Of a DNA stretch of 12,286 bases, positions 1 through 12,286 are shown piece after piece. The DNA is from Candidatus Helarchaeota archaeon (GTDB lineage: Archaea > Asgardarchaeota > Lokiarchaeia > Helarchaeales > HEL-GB-A). The translations under genes were made by a program, and so were the position numbers. Within the stretch, counting starts at the first letter, position 1. Each line of letters opens with the position of its first letter. The notes beneath the pieces are model-generated. The model ran no database searches. It saw only the letters and a program-made list of their open reading frames with translations, and was not told where the DNA came from. The stretch lies in assembly GCA_013375455.1 (NCBI GenBank), contig JABXJT010000113.1, positions 1 to 12,286 on the forward strand, read 5' to 3'.

Positions 1-1451
1 GCCCTAAGGTTATCAGGCGGTACGCCCGTCGCCGGGTTCAAGCCATCCAGCACGGTGTCGAGGGCTACCAAGAGATTTCTCTTGAGGTTGGTCGTAGGGT
101 CTGGAGACCTGAAGGGAGTTACCCCGTAGTGCTTGAAGAGGTCATAGAGTTGTGCCCACTGATAGTAGGGACTGCTCGGGTTCAAACGGGGTTTTAAAAC
201 GCCCCCGACTTGTGCGAGCAACCGCTTATAGCAGGCTGGAAGGGGTTCCGCGAACCCTAAGCCTCTCCGAGCTATCACATAACTTGCCAAGACGTGATCC
301 GAGAAGTTAAATGACCAGGAATACTTCAATGCCCCGATGATCGTGGTGTAGGCTGGATGCACCTTGCGCACCGCGATCCCGTGCCGGGCGCATTTGCGCT
401 CCAGCAAGGGGAGCATCGAGGTTTTGAATTGATTGAGTTTGCGATTTCGTTTCTTGTTATAGGAGAAGGATTGGGCGAAGGATAAGTCTTCTATAATCAA
501 CCCTTTTCCTTTATTGATACAATAATTGATGACTTTATCGAGCTTGAAGCTCGCGTAATCGTCCCGTCGGCCCTTGCGGTAGGAGTGCAGGTTCCGAAAC
601 GGGATCTGCTGATAACTTAAAAACTGCCCCGCTTTATCAATATTGACGAGGGTGACGAAATTGTAATTGAAATCCATCCCAATCGCGCCATGCCGGAATC
701 TATGAAGTAGGTCGGGTTCGGGCGTGTCATAGGACACGTGGGCGTAGTAACGCACCTCCCCTTTGACCAATTTCCTTTTGACGACCACGGTGTATTTGTC
801 CAGTTGGAGAAGGGCTTGGAAGGTCGCTCTTTGGGCGGGATTGACCGCGAGCGGCACGCGGATTCGTTTCGGAATCCGCCCTTGCGTCTTATGGAACGTA
901 GAAATCCGCAACTCCTTGCTGGGCAAGATCTTCAAATTGTTATTCTGTACTCCATCCTGTACCTTCCCATCACAGCGAAACGACGCATCCCGGCGCAAGA
1001 GAAATTCCTCGCGGGCAATTCGCCCCCGAATGCGTTGCCGAAACAACTGTTTCGTCCCAAAGACGACGGGCTTAAGTGCCAAGGCCGCCAGTCGATTTTG
1101 GAGCGATGACCGTTTGGAATATAACCCTGGCAAGCTCCGATCGTTAGGACTCTTCGCAATATTTTTGGCAATCTGCTGCTCCACGACTTCGAGTTTCTGC
1201 GTGAGATTGGTCGCGCGTTTCTTCAACCACGTTTTCTGCTGTTCGAGTTTGGTCTTATTCTCGGTCAAAATAGTATTGACGTACGGGTTGTTCTGGCATA
1301 CTTGCATCAATGTCTGCTGAATTCTTGATGCGCCGTGGAAGACGAGCTGGTACCCCTTCCGTTTCATCCGATTATACACGGTAAAAATTTCATTCAGCTG
1401 GGGTATTTGGGATTCTGACGGATGTAAGCGAAAAATCGTTGTAGTCAGCAT
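1..1451 (-). CDS. tnpB: TnpB-like RuvC nuclease of the IS607/IS605 type, C-terminus off the left edge
   Basis: The minus strand is open from an ATG at 1451 to the window edge (483 codons plus two bases, no stop). The protein belongs to the TnpB-related transposon proteins, known as RNA-guided DNA nucleases. The RuvC parts are visible: GMDFN (D260), GLIIEDLSF (E321) and SDHVLASYVIARR (D385). The paired-cysteine zinc finger that normally sits between the second and third parts is absent; instead there is HPAYTTIIGALKYSW (about 365-379), as I recall from a zinc-finger-less TnpB-related branch. The first 150 residues are basic and helical. About 80 residues follow the last catalytic Asp before the edge. 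An in-frame ATG at 1469 is possible, but GGAG just before 1451 favours the shorter start. Catalytic residues appear intact, so it may still be active although its transposase partner is dead. Confidence 0.85.
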   Translation of the reverse strand, partial: MLTTTIFRLHPSESQIPQLNEIFTVYNRMKRKGYQLVFHGASRIQQTLMQVCQNNPYVNTILTENKTKLEQQKTWLKKRATNLTQKLEVVEQQIAKNIAKSPNDRSLPGLYSKRSSLQNRLAALALKPVVFGTKQLFRQRIRGRIAREEFLLRRDASFRCDGKVQDGVQNNNLKILPSKELRISTFHKTQGRIPKRIRVPLAVNPAQRATFQALLQLDKYTVVVKRKLVKGEVRYYAHVSYDTPEPDLLHRFRHGAIGMDFNYNFVTLVNIDKAGQFLSYQQIPFRNLHSYRKGRRDDYASFKLDKVINYCINKGKGLIIEDLSFAQSFSYNKKRNRKLNQFKTSMLPLLERKCARHGIAVRKVHPAYTTIIGALKYSWSFNFSDHVLASYVIARRGLGFAEPLPACYKRLLAQVGGVLKPRLNPSSPYYQWAQLYDLFKHYGVTPFRSPDPTTNLKRNLLVALDTVLDGLNPATGVPPDNLR

Positions 1452-1530
1452 TGCTCCATTCCCATTCATTTAAGATGAACTGCTTCACAGAATTCAGTCA
1501 ATGGTGCGTTATAAAGGTTTGCCCGCAAAA

Positions 1531-1553
1531 TGCGCAAATGATCCATTTGCGCA
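1531..1553. repeat. Perfect 9-bp inverted repeat upstream of tnpB
   Basis: TGCGCAAAT and ATTTGCGCA flank a 5-base loop (GATCC). The element lies between the end of the broken tnpA (1569) and the tnpB start (1451). It could be a transcript hairpin or a recombinase or regulator binding site. A further GCAAA motif just to the left hints at more than one half-site. The role is inferred only from position. Confidence 0.5.
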
Positions 1554-1568
1554 AATCCAGTTAAGTGA

Positions 1569-1953
1569 TCAATTTTCAGTGTCCTCGAGAATATGCTTAA
1601 TTTGGGTCGTCTTTTTCCCCCCTCGGCGTTTTCCATGCAAACGACTACTGAAATGGACAATGATCGCAATCATATCATCAATGATTTCTTGTTTATAATC
1701 CGACTCGACACGAAATACAATAACCAACTCAGTACCAAACAAGGTGAGCAGTAAATTAGACAAATTTTCGCGTTGGATTGGGGATCTCCGAGGAGAATTA
1801 ACTGTTTGACTTCACTCATTTGAAACGATGATGTCCCTTTTTTCCCATAATCGCATCAATATAGCCTCCATTACTCCAATTTCGGAGGGTCTGTGGCTTG
1901 ACACCCAGAAGGATTGCGGCTTCCTTCATTCGCAAGAGTTTGTCAGTAATCAT
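1569..1953 (-). pseudogene. tnpA: IS607-type serine recombinase (TnpA), frameshifted and internally deleted
   Basis: From the ATG at 1953, 45 codons read as a MerR-like helix-turn-helix (MKEAAILLGVKPQTLRNW, then GKKGHHRFK) and stop at 1816-1818. This matches the DNA-binding N-terminus of IS607 recombinases. Shifting frame continues the sense (MSEVKQLILLG). The third frame, to 1569, gives the typical C-terminal segment: LLLTLFGTELVIVF, then EIIDDMIAIIVHFSSRLHGKRRG. The catalytic domain with the active-site serine and arginines, normally roughly 100 residues between these parts, is missing. So the gene carries at least one frameshift and a large internal deletion and cannot make an active recombinase. 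The upstream TnpB gene start is 117 nt beyond its end. Confidence 0.85.
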
Positions 1954-2061
1954 TGATCAATTTCTTTTCAAAATATGCATTGTTGTCCAATTATAATTTT
2001 TTGATAATAATTGTGGGAAAATAAAAATATAAGAACGCCTAATAACTGAATGAGGTTTAAA

Positions 2062-2169
2062 TTGAATAAGCAATTAATCATTGGACTAAGTGTTATCGCA
2101 ACCCTCGCCATAGTGATCACCATTATCGCGATACGTTTCGCTGGCGATGGCGGGTCTAGTGACGGATGA
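2062..2169 (+). CDS. Possible 35-39 aa single-pass membrane peptide or truncated signal/anchor
   Basis: A TTG at 2062 preceded by TGAGG gives a 35-residue peptide; an ATG at 2050 in the same frame gives 39 residues. It has a short basic N-terminus (NKQ), about 20 hydrophobic residues (LIIGLSVIATLAIVITIIAI), then RFAGDGGSSDG and a stop. This is the layout of the N-terminal anchor and Gly/Ser linker of an archaeal extracellular binding protein. It could therefore be the remnant of a larger exported protein truncated near the insertion sequence, or a true small membrane protein. I see no continuation in other frames after the stop. Nothing else that looks coding is seen in 1954-2371. Confidence 0.35.
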   Translation: MNKQLIIGLSVIATLAIVITIIAIRFAGDGGSSDG

Positions 2170-2233
2170 CTTTGTCTCATACCATTTATACCCTTGCTCC
2201 TAAAATGACGATATTTCAAAAGTTGAGGAAATG

Positions 2234-2291
2234 TCGGATTACGGTTCTAAGCAAACTGTAGCAAGCAAGGGGCATCGGATTATAGTTCTAA
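2234..2291. repeat. 17-nt imperfect direct repeat in the gene-poor spacer
   Basis: TCGGATTACGGTTCTAA (2234-2250) recurs as TCGGATTATAGTTCTAA (2275-2291), with two differences, 41 nt apart. It lies 80-140 nt beyond the stop of the minus-strand methyltransferase gene. No function is apparent. It may be a binding-site pair or a leftover of local duplication. Confidence 0.35.
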
Positions 2292-2371
2292 TTAGATTAA
2301 AAATCACATTTCTTTAGCTGATCTTGTTCTTTACTGTTATATCCTTTGCTATTGGGAAAAAAATGAAATCT

Positions 2372-3526
2372 TTATACATTGATTGGATATTGCCCAAATT
2401 CGTGGGCAGCCTCAATCATCCATTTGAGGCGGGTAGGGTCTATATGACCATGCGAGTGGCAGGGGGCTAAGATATAACCTCCGCCTCGTGCAGCCTTTCT
2501 TATACAATTCTTAACTTCATCTTCAATTTCTTTTTTGCTTCCTCTCACCAGTAAATAGCTCACATCGAGATTTCCAACCAAAACTAAATCATGGCCAACT
2601 TGTTCTCTGACTTTTCCGAGGTCCATTCCCGCAGTGGGCTCTAAAGTTATAGCCCCATCAAATCCCCACTTGATGAAGTAGTCTAGAAGCTTGTAAATCC
2701 GCCCACACGAGTGCCAAAGAATTTTTTTATTCTGTGAATGGACCATCTCGGAAACTTGCCGATAACAATCACCGTACAACTCATCAATTAATTTGGGTCG
2801 TAACAACAGACCTGTTTTATGCCCTAAATCGTCACACCCGGCGATGAGTTCAGCTCCTGCCCTTAGCACTGCTTCCACCATTTTAAGATAGTAATCGGTT
2901 TGGAAATCGACAACCTCCTTTAAGAAAGCCTTATCCTGATAGATGTATTTCGTAAATCTTTCAAAACCGATTGGTTGCCAACAATTTTCCCAGGGGCCGG
3001 GTGCAATATGAGTGATAGGGAAAATTTTATCCTTATATCGCTCAAAGAGGGTTTTATGAAAATTCTCAAGATATTTTAAGTTTCTTTGGAACCAATTCTC
3101 GTTTTCCTCGATCCAATCCCGCCAATCTCTTTTTGTTTTCAAGCGCCCATTAATATAATTCGAAGTTAAGACCCCATCTGCGTATCTAGTAATGTCCCAA
3201 ATCCTCCCATTAATATCATACCAATAATCTTTACCCATCTTCATACTTTGATACATTATCCAATTCGCGTCAAATCCTAGTTTTATCGCGGCTTGCAAGC
3301 AATTCCCAAAGTTTTTAGCGAGCTGTTTATTCATGAAGCCCTCCCTATTCACTAAAAATTTTATGATATGTTTTATTATTGGCTTCTTGAGTAATTTAAC
3401 AAAATTCAGGGTTTCTCTATTTAGGATCTTATCAACCAATGAAGGATTAACCATGAGCCCCATCACGGGAACCCGATCCGGCTCTTGATGGTTCATTGTC
3501 GTTAACAGTCGTTCTTTAAAGTCCAA
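2372..3526 (-). CDS. UroD-fold corrinoid-type methyltransferase (MtaA/CmuA-like, zinc ligands present)
   Basis: The 384 aa protein belongs to the uroporphyrinogen decarboxylase superfamily (PF01208), which includes cytoplasmic methyltransferases acting on methyl-cobamide proteins. The N-terminus (FKERLLTTMNHQEPDRVPV) is the usual opening. CDDLGHKTGLLLRP lies near residue 231. The zinc ligands of the MtaA group are all recognisable: H272 and C274 in WHSCGR, and C356 in ILAPCHSHGH. True UroD decarboxylases lack this His-x-Cys...Cys set, so a methyltransferase role is more likely than heme synthesis. The start is a TTG at 3526, chosen because the family N-terminus begins right there and GGTGAG lies about 10 nt before it. 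It follows the EFR1 gene by 25 nt, suggesting one transcript. Substrate unknown. It could be the substrate-side or the acceptor-side methyltransferase for the corrinoid protein at 9024. Confidence 0.85.
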   Translation of the reverse strand: MDFKERLLTTMNHQEPDRVPVMGLMVNPSLVDKILNRETLNFVKLLKKPIIKHIIKFLVNREGFMNKQLAKNFGNCLQAAIKLGFDANWIMYQSMKMGKDYWYDINGRIWDITRYADGVLTSNYINGRLKTKRDWRDWIEENENWFQRNLKYLENFHKTLFERYKDKIFPITHIAPGPWENCWQPIGFERFTKYIYQDKAFLKEVVDFQTDYYLKMVEAVLRAGAELIAGCDDLGHKTGLLLRPKLIDELYGDCYRQVSEMVHSQNKKILWHSCGRIYKLLDYFIKWGFDGAITLEPTAGMDLGKVREQVGHDLVLVGNLDVSYLLVRGSKKEIEDEVKNCIRKAARGGGYILAPCHSHGHIDPTRLKWMIEAAHEFGQYPINV

Positions 3527-3551
3527 ATTTGCTCAGCTCACCAACACCAGC

Positions 3552-4355
3552 TTAAAGATAGATTTGAGGTTCACGCCGTTTCTTTTGTGCCTTTTTAAAA
3601 AAAGGTGGAATCCACTTAAATTTTATTTGTCTGGCGTTATTCGGACAACTTTTAACGCAGGCAAAACATCGAATACAGTCGCTCTCGTTTATCAAGAACG
3701 TATCAGACTCAATCGCATCTGTCGGACAACTTTCTACGCAGTTCTGACACTTCATACACGATTCAGGATTCAGGACTGGTTGCTCCACAATAAACTTAGC
3801 CATTCCTTTATGGGGCGAGGGTGTGATAGCAGTTGATTCGGGAAAAGGAGGTTTGGGAATATCAAGAATTCTATCGAAATTTACGAGTTTCTTGATGATT
3901 TGCTGTCCAATTGAATGGGCTATCTTTAGGTCTTGGGCATCAGGGCGTCCATGAGCAATTGGGAACTCCTCGTGAGAAAATGAATGCTCTGCAATGAAAG
4001 AAGCGCCACCAATTACATAAAAATTTTTAGTTTCAAGGAGATTTTTTAATTGATTTATAGTATTTCCTTCAGTGACGTTTCCATAGACAGCAACTATAAA
4101 GACTGGTTTTTTATTTCCAGTAAGTCTCTTGAAAAATGGGAGAACGACTTCTGGTATTTCCCGATAATAAACCGGTATTCCTATTAGAACCAAATCTTCT
4201 AAGACATTATAACCTTGATTACGGTTTGCAGATTTAGTTAGGTCAATTTCAGTAACGTCCTGAAGTTCGGTCCCAACTAATATTTCATTCAAAATCTTCT
4301 TAGTACCACCCGTTGGTGAAAAATAGACCGATAGAACGCGCGAAATATTTTTCAT
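3552..4355 (-). CDS. EFR1-type ferredoxin: flavodoxin-like domain plus two [4Fe-4S] clusters
   Basis: This 267 aa soluble protein has an N-terminal flavodoxin-like domain. It opens with the FMN phosphate-binding loop SPTGGTKK (residues 13-20) and carries LVLIGIPVYYREIP and VFIVAVYGN further on. At the C-terminus are two CxxCxxCxxxC motifs (C200, C203, C206, C210 and C227, C230, C233, C237), each ending in CP, as in bacterial-type 2[4Fe-4S] ferredoxins. This is the EFR1 family layout, a presumed low-potential electron carrier. It is the first gene of a minus-strand pair with the UroD-fold methyltransferase. One idea is that it helps re-reduce the cobalt of the corrinoid protein when it oxidises to Co(II). 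The usual activator of that kind (RamA/RACo) is not in this window, so the role is inference. Confidence 0.88.
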   Translation of the reverse strand: MKNISRVLSVYFSPTGGTKKILNEILVGTELQDVTEIDLTKSANRNQGYNVLEDLVLIGIPVYYREIPEVVLPFFKRLTGNKKPVFIVAVYGNVTEGNTINQLKNLLETKNFYVIGGASFIAEHSFSHEEFPIAHGRPDAQDLKIAHSIGQQIIKKLVNFDRILDIPKPPFPESTAITPSPHKGMAKFIVEQPVLNPESCMKCQNCVESCPTDAIESDTFLINESDCIRCFACVKSCPNNARQIKFKWIPPFFKKAQKKRREPQIYL

Positions 4356-4398
4356 TAATTTATTATATAAAAATATTTTTCATTAATTTATTCGTTTA
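4343..4398. repeat. 28-bp tandem duplication over the start codon of the EFR1 gene
   Basis: Bases 4343-4364 recur exactly at 4371-4392 (22 of 22), with a period of 28. On the minus strand each copy contains ATGAAAAATATT. The inner copy is the real start of the EFR1 gene (ATG at 4355). The outer copy would start a tiny peptide that meets TAA after six codons. The duplication therefore copied a start region and lengthened the divergent promoter spacer. Confidence 0.7.
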
Positions 4399-4420
4399 TT
4401 AATAGTTGAAGTGAAATATA
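4361..4420. promoter_or_regulatory. Divergent promoter region between the EFR1 gene and the isomerase gene
   Basis: The 65-nt spacer between the two divergent starts is almost pure A/T. TATATAA at 4364-4370 is a plausible archaeal TATA box for the plus-strand isomerase gene: about 25 nt further would place the transcript start near 4395, with a leader of roughly 25 nt. The same AT tract, read on the minus strand, could serve the EFR1 gene, probably leaderless or short-leadered. The GAAGTGA before the ATG at 4421 is a weak ribosome binding site. Confidence 0.4.
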
Positions 4421-5539
4421 ATGAAAGTTGATGAAAATACGCTTAAAAAGTTGGAGAATTTCAGAGGATATTTAGATAATGATCGCGTTACCGAATTGTT
4501 TGAAGTATTTGCAATAAAATTTGCAGCGGGTCATTGGTGCGCTGGTGATTTTGTAGACAGATTCGCCACTGATGGATATAACGAAACCGTTTCGTCCGAT
4601 ATTCTTGATCAAATTCCACGAGTGGCAGCAGCTAAAATTCAGGGGATTGAATTCCATAACGATATTTTCTTGTTAGAAAATGGAAAAATCGATCACGATA
4701 AAATTACACAAGTACAGGGTGCATTAGAGAAAAATAATGTAGTTGCAACGAACATGAATGTCAACCTTTGGGGAACTCCCAAATGGAAATTAGGGGCAGC
4801 AGCTAATATGAATAAAGGGGTAAGAGAGGATGCCAAAGCACTTCTTTTTCAAGCTATCGATATTGCAAAAGAGATAGGCTGCGCTTCAATGAATTATTGG
4901 CCAGGAAGTGACGGCTGGGACTATAACTTTCAAGTGAACTACAGAACCATTTTAGACTACTTCATCGACGCATGTGCTGAGGTCAATAAAGAAGCAAAGC
5001 AAAGGGGAATTAAATATGGTATAGAACCCAAATTACACGAACCGCGTGAAGGGAATATTATCGTCGGAACCAGTGAAAAAGCTGCTTTGGTGTGCAAGGA
5101 AGTTAATGATATTTGTGGCGGTAGTAATATGGGGATCTGCCTTGATTACGGGCATATTCAGATGTATGCAGGGGAACCCGCGGACAATCTATATACATTA
5201 CAGCGATTTGGTGTTCCAATCCTGAACTTCCACGTTAATAACGCGAAATTACATTCCAATGATGAAGATCGCATTACTGGGACAGGGGATATCTGGCGGT
5301 TTATTGACTTCTGTTATGCATCTATCTCAACAAATTATGGCGGATGGTTCGGTGAAGATCAATTTGAGTATAGAACTGACCCCATCCAAGCAATGGCGCT
5401 CTCCCGAGAGTTATTTGGCAATTGTATGAAGAAAGCTTTACTTATTTACGTTAAGAGAGATGAGCTTCAAGAAGCCCAGGCTACAGGTGATGCTATAAAA
5501 ACTCTTAATATTGTAAAAAAGATTATATACAATGGGTAA
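4421..5539 (+). CDS. Xylose-isomerase-like TIM-barrel protein (sugar isomerase/epimerase)
   Basis: This 372 aa cytoplasmic protein resembles the AP-endonuclease-2/xylose isomerase superfamily (PF01261). MNYWPGSDGWDYNF (about 157-170) corresponds to the xylose isomerase segment with a WGGREGYD-like motif. YGIEPKLHEPR carries the metal-binding Glu (E202) in an IEPK context typical of xylose isomerase. CLDYGHIQMYAGEP (D242, H245), NFHVNNA (H271) and GEDQFEYRTDP (E312, D313, E316) supply the remaining likely metal or catalytic residues. True xylose and rhamnose isomerases are longer and differ in detail, so the sugar is not known. The divergent neighbour genes encode the EFR1 ferredoxin and a methyltransferase, which suggests action on a sugar or polyol freed by demethylation. 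Its last 22 codons are duplicated at 7382-7450. Only 14 nt separate its stop from that of the convergent nuclease gene. Confidence 0.82.
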   Translation: MKVDENTLKKLENFRGYLDNDRVTELFEVFAIKFAAGHWCAGDFVDRFATDGYNETVSSDILDQIPRVAAAKIQGIEFHNDIFLLENGKIDHDKITQVQGALEKNNVVATNMNVNLWGTPKWKLGAAANMNKGVREDAKALLFQAIDIAKEIGCASMNYWPGSDGWDYNFQVNYRTILDYFIDACAEVNKEAKQRGIKYGIEPKLHEPREGNIIVGTSEKAALVCKEVNDICGGSNMGICLDYGHIQMYAGEPADNLYTLQRFGVPILNFHVNNAKLHSNDEDRITGTGDIWRFIDFCYASISTNYGGWFGEDQFEYRTDPIQAMALSRELFGNCMKKALLIYVKRDELQEAQATGDAIKTLNIVKKIIYNG

Positions 5540-5553
5540 AGCTATCTATTAAA

Positions 5554-7182
5554 TTAACCATCAAAAAAATAATCATCTATTCTACTTTGAAGGTCACTCC
5601 AACTTTCAGGATTTCCTTCCACTAAATATGATTTATTAATCAACTGGTCTAAATCTATTTGCGCGCTATTTTTTGGTATATTGAGATATTTCTCTTTACA
5701 CATCTTGATGATATAGTCTAGCATTTCCCGACTTCTTATGGTATAGGGGATTATGATTAAAGTAACACCATTTTTTTCACAGAGATATAATTTCTTTTTG
5801 TCATTGGCTTTCATTCGCTCGAGTTCCTCAATGGATTTATGAAAGTATGGAACCAACTCATAATGTTGTCGTCCCTGATATTCAAAGGCTAGTTTTAATT
5901 CTTGATTATAGCCATCCAGCTCCATTTGATTCTCCCAATCATTAAGTAGCCATGTAGGTCGACTCTTCTGAAACTGCTTATCAAAAATTGATTCAAAGAT
6001 TAAACGACATAATCGTTCATGTCTCCCTAAATTACACTCAGGACACCAAGTACCTCTTTTTATACTATCTGGAATGGCTTCCCAAATATGTCCTTCTTTA
6101 CATTCCACCTCTACCTTTGTGCGTGCATTAACGTATTCGGTCGAACGCAGTTTTCCACCTCTCTCACGTATTAGCTCCTGTAACTCTTCAATAGTTCCCT
6201 TTTCTACATGTGCACATTTTGCACACCAATTTCCTTTTTTAATATTGTTTGGAGTGACTTTCCAAATATGCCCTTCCTTGCACTCTACCTCTAATTTTGT
6301 ATGCGCATCAACAATTTCAGTCGAATGTAATTTACCGCCTCGCAACATTATAATAATTTGTGCTTCCTTATTCATCTTTAACCTTCTTTTGAATCTCCCT
6401 TCCCTATCCCCACATTTGGGACACCACGAGCCGCTTTTAAGATTAGAAGGGGTTGCTTTCCAGACATGCCCTTTTTTGCACACTACTTCCACTTTGGCGT
6501 CCGAATTGACCTTTTCAGCTGATAAATAACTCGTGAAAGTCCGAATTCTTCCCCCTCGTTGTTCTGCCATTTTCTTAATTTCTTTAATTAGCTTCAATCT
6601 CCTCCTGAGATTATTTTTTTTGTTCGCACATTTCTTGCACCACTTACCTCTTTTTATATTATTTGGTGAGGTTTCCCAAATATGCCCCTCCTTACATTCC
6701 ACCTCTACTTTCGTATGAGCATTAACATATATTTTCGAACGCAACTTGCCACCATGGTTCTTCACAAGTTCATATAAATCCTCAATTGATCCTTTTTCTT
6801 TCTTCGCACATTTAGGACACCATCTACCATTTTTTATGTTATTGGGAGTGACTTTCCAAATGTGTCCCTTCTTACACTCTACCTCAACTTTCGTGCGTGC
6901 ATTGACATATTCAGTCGAATGCAATTTGCCACCTTGATACTCCACAATTTCTTGTAATTCTTTCAACCTTATTTCAGGAATTTGATTTTCAATAGCATCC
7001 CAATTTTCAAGCAGCTTGCGTTTTAAATCTTCATTAATAAAGGAATTATCATTAATCCATTGCCTAAAAAACTGTGTAAATTTAAAACCACAAATGGCTT
7101 TTCTCCTAAACAGTGCTTCATATTTCTTCATTAATTGCTGGCAACTGTGAAGCTCTTTTGGATTTATTTTTATTGTGGCCAT
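5554..7182 (-). CDS. Five zinc-ribbon repeats fused to a Vsr/PD-(D/E)XK-like nuclease domain
   Basis: In this 542 aa protein, residues 1-72 are a helical region without recognised domain. Residues 73-388 contain five repeats of about 60 residues, each with GGKLHST-like, KVEVECKKGHIW and NNIKxGxWCPKC-like segments. The CxxxH and CxxC pairs (C103/H107 with C122/C125 in the first) look like zinc ligands of treble-clef or ribbon fingers. Residues 389-500 resemble the Vsr-like fold of some homing endonucleases: RPTWL, then MELDGYN (D423), then LAFEYQGRQHY (E434, Q436, H440), then LIIIPYTI. The likely role is sequence-specific DNA cutting, with the finger array reading DNA; homing-type mobility is inference. 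It lies alone, convergent with the isomerase gene. The start ATG at 7182 lacks a clear ribosome site, as in leaderless transcripts. Confidence 0.72.
   Translation of the reverse strand: MATIKINPKELHSCQQLMKKYEALFRRKAICGFKFTQFFRQWINDNSFINEDLKRKLLENWDAIENQIPEIRLKELQEIVEYQGGKLHSTEYVNARTKVEVECKKGHIWKVTPNNIKNGRWCPKCAKKEKGSIEDLYELVKNHGGKLRSKIYVNAHTKVEVECKEGHIWETSPNNIKRGKWCKKCANKKNNLRRRLKLIKEIKKMAEQRGGRIRTFTSYLSAEKVNSDAKVEVVCKKGHVWKATPSNLKSGSWCPKCGDREGRFKRRLKMNKEAQIIIMLRGGKLHSTEIVDAHTKLEVECKEGHIWKVTPNNIKKGNWCAKCAHVEKGTIEELQELIRERGGKLRSTEYVNARTKVEVECKEGHIWEAIPDSIKRGTWCPECNLGRHERLCRLIFESIFDKQFQKSRPTWLLNDWENQMELDGYNQELKLAFEYQGRQHYELVPYFHKSIEELERMKANDKKKLYLCEKNGVTLIIIPYTIRSREMLDYIIKMCKEKYLNIPKNSAQIDLDQLINKSYLVEGNPESWSDLQSRIDDYFFDG
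6019..6966 (-). repeat. Five in-frame coding repeats (zinc-ribbon units)
   Basis: The DNA encodes five related units of about 171-210 bases (residues 73-133, 134-199, 200-269, 270-331 and 332-388 of the nuclease). Units 1, 4 and 5 share nearly the same peptide core (STEYVNARTKVEVEC or close variants). Unit 3 is the most diverged, with a short insertion (SAEKVNSDAKVEVVC). Unit 2 has WCKKC where the others have WCPKC, WCAKC or WCPEC. The pattern suggests repeated internal duplication followed by unequal divergence. Confidence 0.85.
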
Positions 7183-7210
7183 ATTTGCAACCGTAATTTT
7201 TTTAGGTCAA

Positions 7211-7227
7211 GAGATTAAGAAAATCTC
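7211..7227. promoter_or_regulatory. Small 6-bp inverted repeat upstream of the nuclease gene
   Basis: GAGATT and AATCTC flank a 5-base loop about 30 nt before the nuclease start. TTTATTA at about 7228-7237 on the minus strand could be its TATA box, so the inverted repeat would lie close to the transcript start, where an operator would act. The rest of 7183-7381 is AT-rich and shows nothing coding. Confidence 0.25.
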
Positions 7228-7381
7228 ATAATAAACTAGCAGTTCGCTAATTTTTAAAATAAGAGGGAGTGGAAGATAAGTGATATAAGTAAATCGCACT
7301 AAATTATTTTTTGCAAAAGCATAGTATTTTTCTAATTTTGTAGCTACGACATTTTTTGTACTAACTTAATTGAAATTTTGG

Positions 7382-7450
7382 GAAGCCCAAGCCACCGGCG
7401 ATGCTGTTAAAACTATAAACGTCGTGAAAAAGATAATCTTTAATGAATAA
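7382..7450 (+). pseudogene. Orphan copy of the last 22 codons of the isomerase gene
   Basis: Reading GAAGCCCAAGCC onward gives EAQATGDAVKTINVV and then KKIIFNE with a TAA stop. The end of the isomerase at 5471-5539 reads EAQATGDAIKTLNIV and then KKIIYNG. I count 17 of 22 identical residues, and four of the five changes are conservative, with many silent base changes. Upstream, identity stops abruptly: the frame has a TAA four codons earlier and no isomerase-like sequence before it. The fragment is either the last remains of a tandem paralogue, or the original gene end displaced when the intervening 1.9 kb arrived carrying a substitute end. Confidence 0.8.
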
Positions 7451-7455
7451 ACGAA

Positions 7456-7563
7456 GATGGAAGTGCAGTGGAGCACTCGGGTATTTGATCGCGGAGGGGT
7501 GGACCAAATAGCTTCGGAAAAGTAATCGAAGAAACCCGAGAGTGCATCAATCACCCTTCCATC
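7456..7563 (-). ncRNA. Candidate structured RNA: three-way junction, 108 nt
   Basis: Four stems nest without conflict. P1 pairs 7456-7463 with 7556-7563 (8 bp). P2 pairs 7473-7482 with 7534-7545 (10 bp with a 2-nt bulge). P3 pairs 7483-7490 with 7502-7509 (8 positions). P4 pairs 7512-7516 with 7527-7531 (5 bp). P2, P3 and P4 meet in a tight junction. The only mismatch, A7488 against C7504 in P3, becomes a U-G pair on the minus strand, so minus is the likelier orientation. There it begins 74 nt after the stop of the 7638-8849 methyltransferase gene, as a 3' untranslated element or separate RNA. No known class was recognised; cobalamin riboswitch and hammerhead core motifs were looked for and not found. 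A DNA-level role (transposon-like inverted repeat) remains possible. Confidence 0.5.
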
Positions 7564-7637
7564 CTTCTACCTGCTCTACTAAGTATCTAATATCATAACA
7601 AAAAAAGATTGTTGCAATATTTGCCCAACTCTTGACA

Positions 7638-8849
7638 TTATTTCTTCGCTTCTTTAGCGACTTCCACCAAGGCTCGAACGTTCTCCAATCTTGAATCCTG
7701 TGGTAATCCAATGCCAGGCGAAATTATCAATCCACCTTCCGGAAAATAATCGATTACCTTCCTACAATAGTTTTTTACTTTATCAGGTGAAGATATCACC
7801 AACAATTGATGGGGCACGTTTCCCATTATGCACGAATGCCCTGCAAGCACGTCGTGCGCCATAAAAATGTCGGTTGGACCATCTAAATTAAAAATAATCT
7901 TACCTTTTGGGAGTTCCGCTTTGAAGAGCTCAAAATGCTCCTTAGTCCAATAACCCTCAAAGGATGGCATGGGGACGTAATCCAAATCAATTAAATCTAA
8001 CAACAATTTTTTAAAAGATGGCCAATAAATCTCCTCAAACTGCCGAAAACTCAGAAAGTTTGCGTCCCCACGGTGTAAAGGCATGAAAATATTTTTCACC
8101 CCACTCACATCCGCCATGAGCTGTGCCGTAAGTACCATATAGGGCTCGATTTTATTCGCAAGCAATTGCACCTTTTCCGGAATCTTATGAATGTCACGTG
8201 AGATCCCCCGCAGTCCTCTAAAAAAATCAGCAATGTAGTCATAGGGTGCGCCACTGAATCCAGCGATGGCACCACAGAAGATGACCGTACCTTCCGCCTC
8301 CGTTTTATTGAGGCAATCCATAAGATTATTACTAAAGGAGAGGAGCTTAAAGAGGATTTTTAATAAATTATAGACGAACTTCGGCCAACGTTTTTGAAAT
8401 AACCCTACCATTTGGGGGAGCAGTATTTTCCCAAAATATTTACTTCCATCCGTTAAAAAATCGTCATATTCACTTATATTCATGTAAGTTCTTTCGACAA
8501 ATTGGTACATTTGATCATCAGAGAGACCCTCAGTCCCAGGAAATTTCAATAATTTTAAATCAGCAATTTCAGCAAGGGCTCCAACCCCTGCAAAAGGAAA
8601 GAATACTCCATCAAAATCGAAATGTCTATTCGCTTCCCTATACTTCTCATTCCCCAACTTTTGATCAAAAAAATACTCCCTTGCGGTAATTCCAGCAAAG
8701 CGCGCCGGCAGAATATCATATTCAAGGGCTACGGGCGGACGATCCACTGGTCTTAATTGAATTGCATTTTGGATGCGGTCAAATTTTTCCCTATACATAG
8801 CATTGTTGTCATACTGTTCTTGGATGTGCTTCAATCGTTTTTTCTTCAT
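7638..8849 (-). CDS. UroD-fold protein lacking the MtaA-type zinc ligands
   Basis: The protein is 403 aa from an ATG at 8849. The frame stays open to an ATG at 8930, but those 27 extra residues look non-family, while family-like sequence (YREKFDRIQNAIQLRPVDRPPVALEY) starts soon after 8849. It belongs to the uroporphyrinogen decarboxylase superfamily: AGFSGAPYDYIADFFRG near 196, MPSFEGYWTKEHFELF at 293-308, FNLDGPTDI near 320 and CIMGNVPHQLL at 340-350. Where MtaA has His-x-Cys it has PSFEG, and the C-terminal SPGIGLPQDSRLEN carries no cysteine, so zinc-thiolate chemistry is unlikely. A substrate-side role, passing a methyl group from an unknown donor to the corrinoid protein, fits its position divergent from that gene. 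No clear ribosome site precedes 8849. Confidence 0.75.
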   Translation of the reverse strand: MKKKRLKHIQEQYDNNAMYREKFDRIQNAIQLRPVDRPPVALEYDILPARFAGITAREYFFDQKLGNEKYREANRHFDFDGVFFPFAGVGALAEIADLKLLKFPGTEGLSDDQMYQFVERTYMNISEYDDFLTDGSKYFGKILLPQMVGLFQKRWPKFVYNLLKILFKLLSFSNNLMDCLNKTEAEGTVIFCGAIAGFSGAPYDYIADFFRGLRGISRDIHKIPEKVQLLANKIEPYMVLTAQLMADVSGVKNIFMPLHRGDANFLSFRQFEEIYWPSFKKLLLDLIDLDYVPMPSFEGYWTKEHFELFKAELPKGKIIFNLDGPTDIFMAHDVLAGHSCIMGNVPHQLLVISSPDKVKNYCRKVIDYFPEGGLIISPGIGLPQDSRLENVRALVEVAKEAKK

Positions 8850-8930
8850 TCTGTTAATTATGAAGAATAGTAATCGCTTGGTCAATCCTCCGTGTCGTAG
8901 ACTCCGTAAAACGTGATACGTATGCCACAT

Positions 8931-9023
8931 GGGTCATCTCATCCAGGTTTGGTACAAAAATAGTTTTATTAATAATCGTTTCGGAAAAGGAAGAAGAAAA
9001 AGAAGAAAAGGACATGTTTTCAA
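8931..9023. promoter_or_regulatory. Divergent promoter region of the methyl-transfer locus
   Basis: The spacer between the UroD-fold gene and the corrinoid protein gene holds an AT box (TTTTATTAATAAT, about 8963-8975) that could act as TATA element for the plus-strand genes. It is followed by a purine tract rich in GAAGAAG from about 8985 to 9012. The tract ends in AAAAGGAC, the nearest thing to a ribosome site before the ATG at 9024. No cobalamin riboswitch-like motif is seen. Confidence 0.4.
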
Positions 9024-9662
9024 ATGAATGTATTAGATGATATCTCGGAAGCTGTCATCAAAGGTGATGCAGAGGCGACGAGTGCTTTAGCAAAACAGAT
9101 AGTTGCAGATAAAAAGATCGATCTAAACGATGCAATCATTCACGGTTTAAATAAGGGCATGAAGGTTGTTGGAGAATTATATGACAAGCGCGAATATTTT
9201 CTGCCAGAAATAATTGTAGCCGCAGACGCCCTTTATGAAGCGCTTGAAATATTCAAACCTCATTTGAAAACAACACAGAAATACAAAGCAACGGTGATTT
9301 GTGGCGTTGTTCGTGGGGACATCCACGATATCGGTAAAAACGTCGTGAAGCTCTTCTTAGAAGCGTCCGGATACAAAGTCATTGATTTAGGACGAAATGT
9401 TCCGGCTGAAAAATTCGTTGATGCCGTTAAAGAATATCAAGCAGAAGTTCTAGCGCTTTCGACCCTAATGAGTCCAACCTTGGAAAGCATGTCTGAAGTC
9501 GTCGATCTTTTAAAATCTCAAGGGCTCCACGAAAAAGTGAACGTCATCATTGGTGGTGCAGCCACGGATGAAAAATTTGCAGAAGAAATTGGGGCAACTT
9601 ATCTAGAAGATGCGAATTCCGCGATAAAATTTTTGAATGCTCATTTTTCAGGAGGGAAATAG
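9024..9662 (+). CDS. Corrinoid (cobalamin-binding) methyl-carrier protein, MtbC/MttC/MtaC type
   Basis: This 212 aa cytoplasmic protein carries a methyl group on the cobalt of a bound corrinoid between two methyltransferases. Residues 1-85 form the helical cap domain (ISEAVIKGDAEATSALA, then MKVVGELYDKREYFLPEI). Residues 87-210 form the Rossmann-like B12 domain. The lower axial ligand motif GDIHDIGKN is present, with H101 as the cobalt ligand, followed by the SxL-type segment ALSTLMSPT and the GG loop (VIIGGAA, about 174-180). Length and order are standard for the MtaC/MtbC/MttC/MtmC group; the substrate cannot be read from the sequence. It starts a plus-strand operon and ends 2 nt before the MtaA-like gene, so the two are likely translationally coupled. 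Confidence 0.93.
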   Translation: MNVLDDISEAVIKGDAEATSALAKQIVADKKIDLNDAIIHGLNKGMKVVGELYDKREYFLPEIIVAADALYEALEIFKPHLKTTQKYKATVICGVVRGDIHDIGKNVVKLFLEASGYKVIDLGRNVPAEKFVDAVKEYQAEVLALSTLMSPTLESMSEVVDLLKSQGLHEKVNVIIGGAATDEKFAEEIGATYLEDANSAIKFLNAHFSGGK

Positions 9663-9667
9663 GGTTG
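9651..9667 (+). promoter_or_regulatory. Ribosome binding site that fixes a TTG start
   Basis: GGAGG at 9651-9655, inside the last codons of the corrinoid gene, lies 9 nt before TTG at 9665. The next in-frame ATG (9707) would be too far from it. The site supports the TTG as start and indicates coupled translation. Confidence 0.7.
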
Positions 9668-10705
9668 GAATTACTCGAAAAGGTACCCGATATTTTAGAA
9701 GGTCTCATGGCAAAACCCGGATCAACGGTTCCAACATTTCCAATTATTTTAGGATATTCCATTAATGAATATCACAACCATACTGGAATTCCTGCTCCGG
9801 ATATCATGCGCGACGGGGATAAAATAGCTGAGGCTCAAATATATATTGCACGCCGTTTCAATATTCCTTTTGTCATTACCATCATTGATCTAAATGTTAT
9901 TGGGGAAGCTTTTGGTGCCACGCTGACCTATATGCCCGACGTCATCCCAGTTCATGAACATCCTGCAATTGAAGGTCTTGAAGGAATTGATGATATAGAA
10001 CCAAAAGATCCCCGACGTGATGGGCGAATGCCCCAAGTAATTAAAGCCGCGGAACGCTTTGGGCAAAATTTTAGCGCACAGGGGGAATTAAATTTTGGTG
10101 GGTGCGAAGGACCTATTACTGCAGCGGGATCCGTTTGGGGAGTGGAAAATTTAATGCGAAACATGATAAAGAATCCAAATCTCGTACACAAAGTCCTCGC
10201 TGCTTGCACTGACACGATAATAGATTTTTGTAATGCCCAAATCGATGCGGGTGTCCAAGCGATTGGTCTTGCAGAACCTACCGCTTCCTCGACCTGCATT
10301 TCTCCTCAATTTTTTCAAGAATTTGCCGTGCCCTACTTGAAAAAAATCACCCGGAAAGTAAATTCGCCCGCATTTCTGCTTCACGTATGCGGTGAATCCC
10401 AAAAACTCGTTAAATTGGTAAGTAAGATTACTAATATCTTGATTTTTAGCGTAGATCAAATTGATTTACGGGCTGCGAAAGAGGAACTTGGTAAAAAATT
10501 TCTCATTTTATTGGGAAATGTTTCCACGGGCATCATGCGCCGTGGTACTATTGCAGAAGTTGAGGCGGCGACAAAGGCTTGTATTGGAGAAGCAATGCTT
10601 GGTGGAAAGTTCATTCTTTCAACTGGTTGCGACATTGCACCCGGAACCCCTCCTGAAAACATTGAAACGCTCATACGCATCGGGAGAACCTTCGGAAAAT
10701 TCTAA
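9665..10705 (+). CDS. Methylcobamide methyltransferase, MtaA/MtbA-like (zinc-dependent)
   Basis: The 346 aa UroD-superfamily protein resembles the methylcobamide:coenzyme M methyltransferases MtaA and MtbA, which take the methyl group from a corrinoid protein. Zinc ligands are in place: H240 and C242 in LLHVCGE, and C322 in LSTGCDIAPGTPPEN, a hallmark ending of that family. VDQIDLRAAKEELG (263-276) and LLGNVSTG (282-289) also match. It directly follows its presumed corrinoid partner. No methanogenesis genes are visible, so the acceptor could be coenzyme M or another thiol, or a pterin carrier feeding the Wood-Ljungdahl methyl branch; the choice is inference. The start is TTG. Confidence 0.88.
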   Translation: MELLEKVPDILEGLMAKPGSTVPTFPIILGYSINEYHNHTGIPAPDIMRDGDKIAEAQIYIARRFNIPFVITIIDLNVIGEAFGATLTYMPDVIPVHEHPAIEGLEGIDDIEPKDPRRDGRMPQVIKAAERFGQNFSAQGELNFGGCEGPITAAGSVWGVENLMRNMIKNPNLVHKVLAACTDTIIDFCNAQIDAGVQAIGLAEPTASSTCISPQFFQEFAVPYLKKITRKVNSPAFLLHVCGESQKLVKLVSKITNILIFSVDQIDLRAAKEELGKKFLILLGNVSTGIMRRGTIAEVEAATKACIGEAMLGGKFILSTGCDIAPGTPPENIETLIRIGRTFGKF

Positions 10706-10710
10706 AAAGT

Positions 10711-10765
10711 CTATTATCTTTTTTAAAATAGTAAAGACAAAACTATTAATAGGATTTTTTCTCTT
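10711..10765 (+). terminator. Weak terminator-like AT region after the MtaA-like gene
   Basis: CTATT and AATAG flank a T-rich loop just after the stop, then comes a palindromic CTATTAATAG (10743-10752) followed by a T6 run (10755-10760). T runs after weak hairpins can end archaeal transcription. The same AT stretch could instead hold a promoter for the next gene. Confidence 0.3.
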
Positions 10766-10798
10766 ATCACTCAAGTACTTCTAGGAGGCTAATCTAAA

Positions 10799-11176
10799 AT
10801 GCAAGAGGAAAATTTGAGAAAATTTATAATTCAGATAGGGATGGGTGTTGATCAACACGGACAGGACGTTACAAAGGCTGCGCAGAAGGCAATTAAAAAT
10901 GCGATTTCCAATAATTGCTTAGTAGGATTGACTGAAATTTGTAATCTTACGGATTTAAGGAATTTTTACGTGCACGTTCGGATTGCTGTCCCTTATCCTG
11001 AACAAATTAATGAGAAACGCCTTTTAAAAGCAGTCCCATTTGGGAATAAAGAGTTGGTCGTGGAGAAGGGAGGGATGGTCGTGCCGGGCATTCAGATTCC
11101 CGAATTAGGTGATTCATCGAATGAAATGATTATTGCAACGGCCGCCGTGACTGTACTGGTCAAAACGGACAGTTAG
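10799..11176 (+). CDS. Lin0512 family protein (TIGR02058-type), function unknown
   Basis: This 125 aa soluble protein matches the Lin0512 family pattern throughout: IGMGVDQHGQDVTKAAQKAI near the N-terminus, VHVRIAVPYPEQIN (about 54-67), PFGNKELVVEKGGMVVPGI in the third quarter and IIATAAVTVLV at the end. It has no signal peptide or membrane segment. The family is a small conserved group without known biochemical role. A strong ribosome site, AGGAGG at 10783-10788, sits ideally before the ATG. It lies between the methyltransferase and the transporter, 14 nt before the latter, so it is probably cotranscribed with it and may assist substrate binding or uptake (inference). Confidence 0.85.
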   Translation: MQEENLRKFIIQIGMGVDQHGQDVTKAAQKAIKNAISNNCLVGLTEICNLTDLRNFYVHVRIAVPYPEQINEKRLLKAVPFGNKELVVEKGGMVVPGIQIPELGDSSNEMIIATAAVTVLVKTDS

Positions 11177-11190
11177 TCGAAGGATGAAAA

Positions 11191-11997
11191 ATGGAAATTT
11201 GGTTTATTTTATTCTGGTTAGCAATTGGTCTTTTTTTTGGGATTGGATCTGGCATGACCGGGCTGTCAGCTGTAAATCTAATACTTCCCATTCTTTATAC
11301 AGTGTTTTCATTTGGTATTTTAATGGCGATAGGAACAAGTCTTTTTATTGATATGATTAATTCAGCAATCGTGGCGCTTTTTTATGCGAGATATGCAAAT
11401 GTTGATTTTAAAATAGGGCTTATGATGGGAATTATATCATTCATGTTCGCAATTCTTGGGGCTCATGTTGCTTTTATTATTGCATCTGCTTCTGAGGATT
11501 TCTTAGCTGGTTCATTTGGTATCCTCCAACTTTTTATCGGAGTTGCATTTATTTATCGTGGATTAAAGAAATCTGAGAGTACGGAATCTGGAGAGATGAC
11601 AAAAACGAGGGTAGCTATTTGGTTTGATAAAATACCAGATAATTATAAGAAATTTATTATTATTATTGCCTCTGTGATTCTCGGTTTTATAGGTGGTTTG
11701 TTAGGGGCAGGGGGCGGATTTGTTATAACTTTTATTCTAATATTCCTTTTATCATTAGAGAGCCACAAAGCTGTTGGTACTGCTTGTTTTGTAATGCTTT
11801 TTACCACGGCGGGAGCGGTTCTATACTATTCAACGCAGTTCTCCATTGATTTCGGTTTTGGTGGCCTAATTGGAGTATTTAGTATTATTGGCGCCTTCAT
11901 AGGTACGCAAGCTGCCCACAAACTCTCTGAAAAGCATCTCACTTTCGCTTTAGGCTTGATAATTATGGTATTTGGCATCGTCATGATTTTCTATTAA
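11191..11997 (+). CDS. TSUP (TauE/SafE) family membrane transporter
   Basis: The 268 aa integral membrane protein has about eight hydrophobic segments in two halves (roughly 3-127 and 154-268) joined by a charged linker (KKSESTESGEMTKTR). Each half opens with a glycine-rich motif, GIGSGMTGLSAVNLILP (17-33) and GFIGGLLGAGGGFVIT (165-180). The second motif, followed by SHKAVGTACFVML, is typical of the TauE/SafE family (PF01925). Members move sulfite, sulfoacetate and other organic anions. Here it probably imports or exports a substrate or product of the methyl-transfer pathway. An AGGATG site precedes the ATG. It ends the operon, 19 nt before the end of the convergent MoaD-like gene. Confidence 0.87.
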   Translation: MEIWFILFWLAIGLFFGIGSGMTGLSAVNLILPILYTVFSFGILMAIGTSLFIDMINSAIVALFYARYANVDFKIGLMMGIISFMFAILGAHVAFIIASASEDFLAGSFGILQLFIGVAFIYRGLKKSESTESGEMTKTRVAIWFDKIPDNYKKFIIIIASVILGFIGGLLGAGGGFVITFILIFLLSLESHKAVGTACFVMLFTTAGAVLYYSTQFSIDFGFGGLIGVFSIIGAFIGTQAAHKLSEKHLTFALGLIIMVFGIVMIFY

Positions 11998-12016
11998 AAA
12001 ATCATAAGATTAAAAA

Positions 12017-12286
12017 TTAACCTCCACCAACGGGCGGAATCACGTGCAGTGAATCACCATCAGCGAGAGGACGTTCTACATCTTTCTCTGGATGAATGTC
12101 TCGCAGGTTAAGCATTAAAAGCAGCATTTTATACTGACCATTAGCATAGAACATTTCTGGCAATTTCTTTCCAAATCGTTCATCGATTCTTTTTAACAAA
12201 TCTCTTAATTTACTACCTTCAGGAAGTTCAATCGTGGCTTCCTTTTCGCCCGTGAAATCGGCTAAAGGTCCCATGAAGTGTACCTT
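12017..12286 (-). CDS. MoaD/ThiS-like beta-grasp sulfur carrier, start off the right edge
   Basis: The C-terminal 89 or so residues of a small ubiquitin-fold protein are present. An ATG at 12274 exists, but the frame continues upstream to the edge as KVHF, and KVHFMGPLADFTGEKEATI is the first beta strand of a MoaD-like protein, so the true start probably lies just outside. IELPEGSKLRDLLKRI, then LADGDSLHVIPPVGGG at the end, are characteristic. The terminal Gly-Gly is the site that is adenylated and thiocarboxylated by an E1-like enzyme; here it is extended to three glycines. Roles in this family include molybdopterin or tungstopterin synthesis and archaeal protein modification. It is convergent with the transporter and may belong to a different operon. 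Confidence 0.8.
   Translation of the reverse strand, partial: KVHFMGPLADFTGEKEATIELPEGSKLRDLLKRIDERFGKKLPEMFYANGQYKMLLLMLNLRDIHPEKDVERPLADGDSLHVIPPVGGG

Follow-up and report, generated by a model that had tools for sequence, protein, structure and literature searches.

Why does the 3' end of a protein-coding gene occur twice in an archaeal chromosome, with a nuclease gene between the two copies? The question is raised by a stretch of 12,286 nucleotides from Candidatus Helarchaeota archaeon (contig JABXJT010000113.1, positions 1 to 12,286, assembly GCA_013375455.1; hereafter the window), in which an isomerase gene, encoding a TIM-barrel protein of the Pfam family PF01261, is followed by a nuclease gene and then by a second copy of the isomerase end. 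We consider it very probable that a homing endonuclease brought its own isomerase end with it and displaced the native one, which is the best explanation overall.

The final 22 codons of the isomerase with the stop codon (5471-5539, + strand) and the segment 7382-7450 (+ strand) share 51 of 69 bases in an ungapped comparison. The encoded peptides, EAQATGDAIKTLNIVKKIIYNG and EAQATGDAVKTINVVKKIIFNE, each followed by the stop, have 17 of 22 residues in common. Self-blastn of the window recovered this pair at E 1.7e-6, while the runner-up match to the isomerase end within the window reached 35/69 on the + strand and 33/69 on the - strand. The similarity breaks off at 7382 on the 5' side and right past the stop codon on the 3' side. 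Frame and stop are intact in both copies and their differences are chiefly silent (nonsynonymous divergence, dN, 0.10; synonymous divergence, dS, saturated and not computable), suggesting that both ends were under protein-level conservation until recently. Between the copies lie one gene, 5554-7182 (- strand), whose end is 14 bp from the isomerase stop, and the 199 bp 5' of its start (7183-7381). The order of functional gene end, endonuclease open reading frame (ORF) and second gene end is thereby present in the window, with the presumed right end of the insert at 7381/7382, where similarity ends sharply. A preliminary description of this DNA had reported the recurring 22 codons, the abrupt 5' limit, the many silent changes and a content of exactly the nuclease gene and its upstream region, all of which were borne out.

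Judged by its sequence, the gene at 5554-7182 (542 aa) looks like a free-standing homing endonuclease. It matches CapR/DUF4379 and the endonuclease families PHROG 559 and 681, its phage relatives are annotated as homing endonucleases, and it is a separate ORF on the strand opposite to the isomerase, not within an intron or intein. The C-terminal nuclease domain (5637-6033, - strand) is of the Vsr/EDxHD type, with the Vsr/I-Bth0305I fold and the conserved acidic, His and Lys positions present. A treble-clef repeat array (CapR/DUF4379-like; 6025-6975, - strand), recognized by Pfam, self-blastn repeats and alignment, is presumed to be the DNA-reading part. I-Bth0305I (EDxHD) and Vsr share the nuclease-domain fold of the window protein; the matched structures contain no treble-clef array, 3r3p comprising the catalytic domain only. 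A fold search with the full-length nuclease returned noise only, a PDB search by sequence gave no match, and an Rfam scan of the window gave nothing at gathering score.

The preliminary description had suggested that the same arrangement be sought around homologous nucleases, and these are indeed sometimes flanked by duplicated gene ends. At locus L170 of genome G112, the nuclease lies between a MoxR-type gene plus a 71-bp gene start on one side and a complete VWA_CoxE gene on the other (the Pfam call was made on the G115 orthologue). Aligned to the related genome G116, the G112 VWA gene mismatches at 19.9% of positions before bp 141 and at 3.8% between bp 141 and 1000 (log-likelihood gain 19.5), and the displaced start past the nuclease is the same as in G116 at 70 of 71 bp, after which similarity ends. 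A divergent start on the gene together with a G116-like displaced start indicates that the gene start was replaced and the old start displaced. The imported tract, which ends at bp 141, would pass the presumed break at bp 71 by ~70 bp, a reach that fits co-conversion as described in the available text of PMC2988022. These alignments thus show mobility with flank co-conversion for the G112 relative of the nuclease. In G115 (L153), the same VWA gene has at its side a nuclease that shares 77% identity with the G112 one; the imported ends of the two genomes agree at 60/63 positions, and their gene bodies mostly at 42-53/63 per alignment window.

The counterpart of the G112 case came from a second nuclease family. 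At L254 (G116), an ORF with a tight repeat, taken from the controls of the flank comparison described below, encodes a LAGLIDADG_3 protein (E 1.4e-13) and adjoins a MoxR-type AAA gene. Compared with G112, the last ~103 bp of this MoxR-type gene are 26% different and its body 8.8% (log-likelihood gain 11.2), and the displaced end matches G112 at 46/48 positions, the gene's own end at 39/48. Since G112 carries the VWA replacement and G116 the MoxR-type replacement, the two genomes control each other, and sequence comparison demonstrates an imported gene end with a displaced native end at both loci. Relatives of the L254 protein are present in 25 of the 227 Asgard genomes. Twenty-eight LAGLIDADG loci were examined, 25 of them with enough flank, and four of these 25 had a direct repeat of at least 45 bits (L254, L306, L317 and L310). 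At L306 the 3' end of an FAD-dependent oxidoreductase gene is duplicated in exactly the arrangement of the window, and at L317 that of an MBL-fold gene, with the left copy out of frame. The 110-bp duplicated stretch at L310 appears tRNA-like by eye; ARAGORN found no tRNA in it, and Rfam nothing above gathering score.

Further cases accompany the array nucleases. At L152 (G108), the first ~24 codons of a RibD_C-type gene are duplicated. Among 29 relatives (30 loci returned for 49 matching genomes, minus G108 itself), 22 have an amidohydrolase gene upstream whose end overlaps the RibD_C-type start; in G108, the displaced start retains the overlap and the functional gene is without it, an operon context that supports an imported end. 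At L145 (G104), the duplicate covers the final ~120 codons of radA (Rad51 by Pfam). Besides L170 and L254, a total of seven loci with duplicates, the window included, were found, six at protein-gene ends and one tRNA-like. The protein genes at these loci encode the isomerase, a RibD-like reductase, a VWA protein, RadA, a MoxR-type ATPase, an FAD oxidoreductase and an MBL-fold protein. The earlier idea that a cassette enters with its own gene end therefore holds for G112 and G116 and is backed by operon context in L152, while for the window itself it would follow from the same geometry.

Matches to the window nuclease were found in 29 of the 227 Asgard genomes, with up to eight per genome, and PHROG 559 matches in 28 (both at E 1e-20). 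In two other phyla, nuclease matches were present in 0/291 and 1/392 genomes at E 1e-25, a threshold that differs from the one used for Asgard genomes. For the flanks, 62 Asgard loci and the window provided 64 array/nuclease segments, 54 of which had flanks of 250 bp or more on either side; direct repeats of at least 45 bits across the segment were counted, with ORFs from the same loci as controls. The array-family segments had a direct repeat in 5/54 cases (the window, L170, L153, L152 and L145) and an inverted repeat in 0/54, compared to 6/248 and 0 for the control ORFs. All five share a layout: the distance between repeat copy and nuclease is 0-84 bp on the nuclease 3' side and 103-206 bp on its 5' side. 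When both copies had to lie within 250 bp, the counts were 5/54 versus 4/310 controls (p 0.0048). These four control repeats belong to the L254 LAGLIDADG endonuclease, a nuclease-array copy pair at L133, a repeat touching an array fragment at L144 and an AT-rich repeat at L114; dropping the L254, L133 and L144 controls gives p 0.0019, a post hoc figure. With both nuclease families pooled and the window and L254 excluded, 7/77 segments had repeats versus 6/248 (p 0.016). Left out of the counts were a 91-bp repeat at L114, at a distance of 2.2 kb, an AT-rich one of 24-36 bp at L121 and one of 24 aa at L140, 1.3 kb away. The statistics alone are modest, and conviction comes from the individual loci.

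Based on these loci, we propose a scheme for the window. The endonuclease would have cut an endonuclease-free isomerase allele ~69 bp before the stop. On the gene-body side, the break would then have been mended by homologous recombination, the donor being an allele that already had the endonuclease beside a diverged isomerase end, so that gene end, endonuclease and its upstream region would be copied in; on the far side, the broken native end would be attached without homology. The expected product is a native gene body, an imported end, the endonuclease and a displaced native end, with the gene staying whole. The imported end should resist recutting because of its many silent-site differences from the native end. 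Cleavage at the gene end, one-sided repair and resistance to recutting are steps that we infer from this anatomy.

By analogy, 5471-5539 would be the imported, functional 3' end, with an uncertain left boundary, and 7382-7450 the displaced native end of 22 codons and stop, comparable to the displaced ends at L170, L152 and L254. The assignment follows the geometry of L254 and L306, where the functional 3' end abuts a convergent nuclease and the remnant lies beyond the nuclease 5' side. Homologue P0010 ends exactly as the right copy does, and this copy is also closer to the family consensus than is the isomerase's own end, in agreement with 7382-7450 being native. Identity to L001 (right copy 55/69, left copy 53/69) does not discriminate the native end, and GC content at third codon positions (GC3; left end 0.23, right end 0.41, isomerase body 0.36) is not decisive over 22 codons. 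The isomerase gene body (4421-5470, + strand; AP_endonuc_2 TIM barrel) is presumably native, with Helarchaeota homologues at 72-82% identity. The true junction inside the gene may sit upstream of 5471, given that replaced tracts in two other loci reach into the gene for ~70-100 bp. The stretch 7451-7640 gave no informative match to relatives, and the isomerase alignment none to viral contigs. The sequence immediately past the displaced end (7450-7600) can form an imperfect hairpin, which is weak (z -1.9) and belongs to no Rfam family at gathering score.

The two ends could also descend from tandem paralogues, the nuclease having inserted in a second, adjacent isomerase gene of which only 22 codons were left. 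The preliminary description had offered this as one reading, and it now appears unlikely, though it retains some weight: tandem VWA paralogues exist in Asgard genomes (G106, G107 and G108), making erased paralogues possible, and the saturated dS is what an old paralogue would give. However, the full second isomerase that had been named as a refuting case was absent from the fetched stretches of all 80 related isomerase loci (0/80), and G001, G002 and G003 have one isomerase match each and G004 none. Extra matches of the 22-residue peptide in nine loci had E 1.3 or worse and were judged to be chance. Of the 22 closest homologues, the window's own included, those that carry a name come from Helarchaeota/Promethearchaeota and are 72-82% identical; two Helarchaeota genomes carry the gene once each (78% and 72% identical) with no nuclease adjoining. 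A paralogue would moreover require a loss of ~1 kb stopping sharply right at the insert, and the same anatomy in G112 and G116 consists of a displaced native end, not a paralogue.

A partial duplication that arose independently of the nuclease, for instance by replication slippage or ectopic recombination, and came to lie beside it by chance would suit the fact that most nuclease loci lack a duplicate. We regard it as highly improbable in view of the stereotyped copy positions relative to both nuclease ends and of two copies that differ like alleles of different species. Less probable still is a larger site-specific integrative element that recombined at the gene end and left att-like direct repeats. 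It would restore the gene end, as integrations at tRNA genes do, and also those at icd in E. coli, but the space between the copies holds only the nuclease and no integrase or recombinase, identity of the copies is 74% (51/69) without an identical att core, and at other loci duplicates as short as 37 bp and as long as about 390 bp occur at the 5' or 3' ends of genes. The likeness to integrative elements at tRNA genes drawn in the preliminary description is therefore an analogy only, the nuclease probably being a homing endonuclease.

Several observations weigh against an imported end carried by a homing endonuclease. The enrichment of flanking repeats is modest and sensitive to pooling (p 0.018 without the window, 0.064 with L153/L170 counted once), and a duplicate was undetected in 49/54 array-family segments and in 21/25 LAGLIDADG segments. 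At L145 the nuclease reading frame is broken, for which reason that locus looks like an old, decaying insertion. No close relative of the window locus was available, so that the native end is assigned there by analogy, and windowed identity to L001/L002 gives no clear replaced tract. Among 14 endonuclease segments from six phages, no duplicate of a coding gene end was found; the repeats seen were one of 34 bp at a Campylobacter phage endonuclease and a distant one of 56 bp in a Salmonella phage.

To call gene-end restoration at a protein gene unprecedented would be too strong, as fungal mitochondria offer a precedent. In the so-called mORFs of Glomus sp. (atp6, atp9, cox2 and nad3) and Allomyces macrogynus (atp6), an endonuclease ORF separates the displaced native end from a gene whose C-terminal end is inserted and divergent, an arrangement shared by the Asgard loci; in the available text of that work, the native end matches a close relative and the inserted end does not, and silent differences dominate (PMC3630166). 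The same text describes organelle DNA, LAGLIDADG or GIY-YIG nucleases and C-terminal ends only, whereas the Asgard loci are in archaeal chromosomes, involve a Vsr/EDxHD nuclease with a treble-clef array as well as LAGLIDADG proteins, and affect 5' and 3' ends. The window locus works like a mitochondrial mORF but is no member of that group, its host being archaeal and not a fungal mitochondrion. Phages harbor free-standing homing endonucleases with CapR-type zinc-finger arrays, the T5orf172 homing endonuclease genes (PMC10448857). These and the phage T4 endonucleases (PMC2988022) resemble the Asgard system in standing beside conserved genes, in using repeat arrays for DNA binding and in flank co-conversion; they differ in the nuclease domain (T5orf172, GIY-YIG or HNH), and the accessible parts of both sources describe no displaced gene ends. 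In engineered HomeR home-and-rescue drives, a cutter is likewise linked to a rescue copy of its target gene. We ourselves draw the parallel to a replacement end that resists cutting; as outlined in the available text (PMC7968924), HomeR uses engineered Cas9 in an insect with designed recoding, whereas the Asgard loci would draw on natural divergence of the donor allele. A homing-endonuclease-like gene is mentioned in an Asgard mobile element in the part of PMC8813620 available. Our literature search, with subscription papers mostly beyond its reach, found no report of homing-endonuclease-linked replaced gene ends in archaeal or bacterial chromosomes, and found this anatomy for fungal mitochondria only.

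Overall, there is perhaps an even chance that Asgard chromosomes host a natural counterpart of home-and-rescue, in which at least two unrelated endonuclease families spread between species, cut the 5' or 3' ends of conserved genes and supply diverged, cut-resistant ends, with the treble-clef array permitting retargeting. Gene ends would thereby be exchanged between species, and chimeric genes would outlast the nuclease, as suggested by G128, whose VWA start is near-identical to the imported one (57-58/63) with no nuclease in the 4.2 kb examined at that locus. More firmly, the Asgard loci show that the spread of selfish nucleases without intron or intein, described for fungal mitochondria, operates in cellular chromosomes too, those of Asgard archaea, and with nucleases of another class. 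This explains how genes of these archaea can come by short imported tracts at their ends (mosaic genes), and it offers a natural model of a cutter carrying its own rescue allele. The displaced end would predict the cut site of each nuclease, and gene trees call for caution, as Asgard genes can bear foreign ends.

Other loci and neighboring genes showed further features. In G127 (L127, 4005-7772, reverse orientation), an array-nuclease gene comes right after a MoxR-type gene split in two frames, at a site that is a hot spot common to G112, G115 and G116. The repeat at L144 (G003, Helarchaeota) is a 50-bp direct repeat (4425-4474/5153-5202, 88%) around a flavodoxin-like gene; one copy overlaps the end of a fragment that has the array but lacks a nuclease domain, possibly an eroded case. 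L114 contains an 892-aa frame (5274-7952) that joins a treble-clef/Vsr-like nuclease to an N-terminus resembling, by eye, a group II intron reverse transcriptase; this nuclease domain and its 91-bp neighbor recur in L123. In the window, three URO-D/MtaA-type methyltransferase genes and a corrinoid protein gene (2372-3526, 7638-8930, 9024-9662 and 9665-10705) form a methyl-transfer cluster around the isomerase. A TnpB-like gene (3-1469, - strand) runs off the window edge, with a weak NF040570 match below cut-off and a GC3 of 0.63 versus 0.30-0.42 in the window's other full-length genes. Finally, radA in several Asgard genomes contains a frame-breaking sequence of ~31 nt at one codon (L145 3716-3746, L151 4147-4177, L273, L277, L278 and L285). 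The stem of its hairpin changes on both sides (AGCGA/TCGCT, AGTGA/TCACT and AATGA/TCATT), making it a candidate minimal archaeal (BHB-type) intron.

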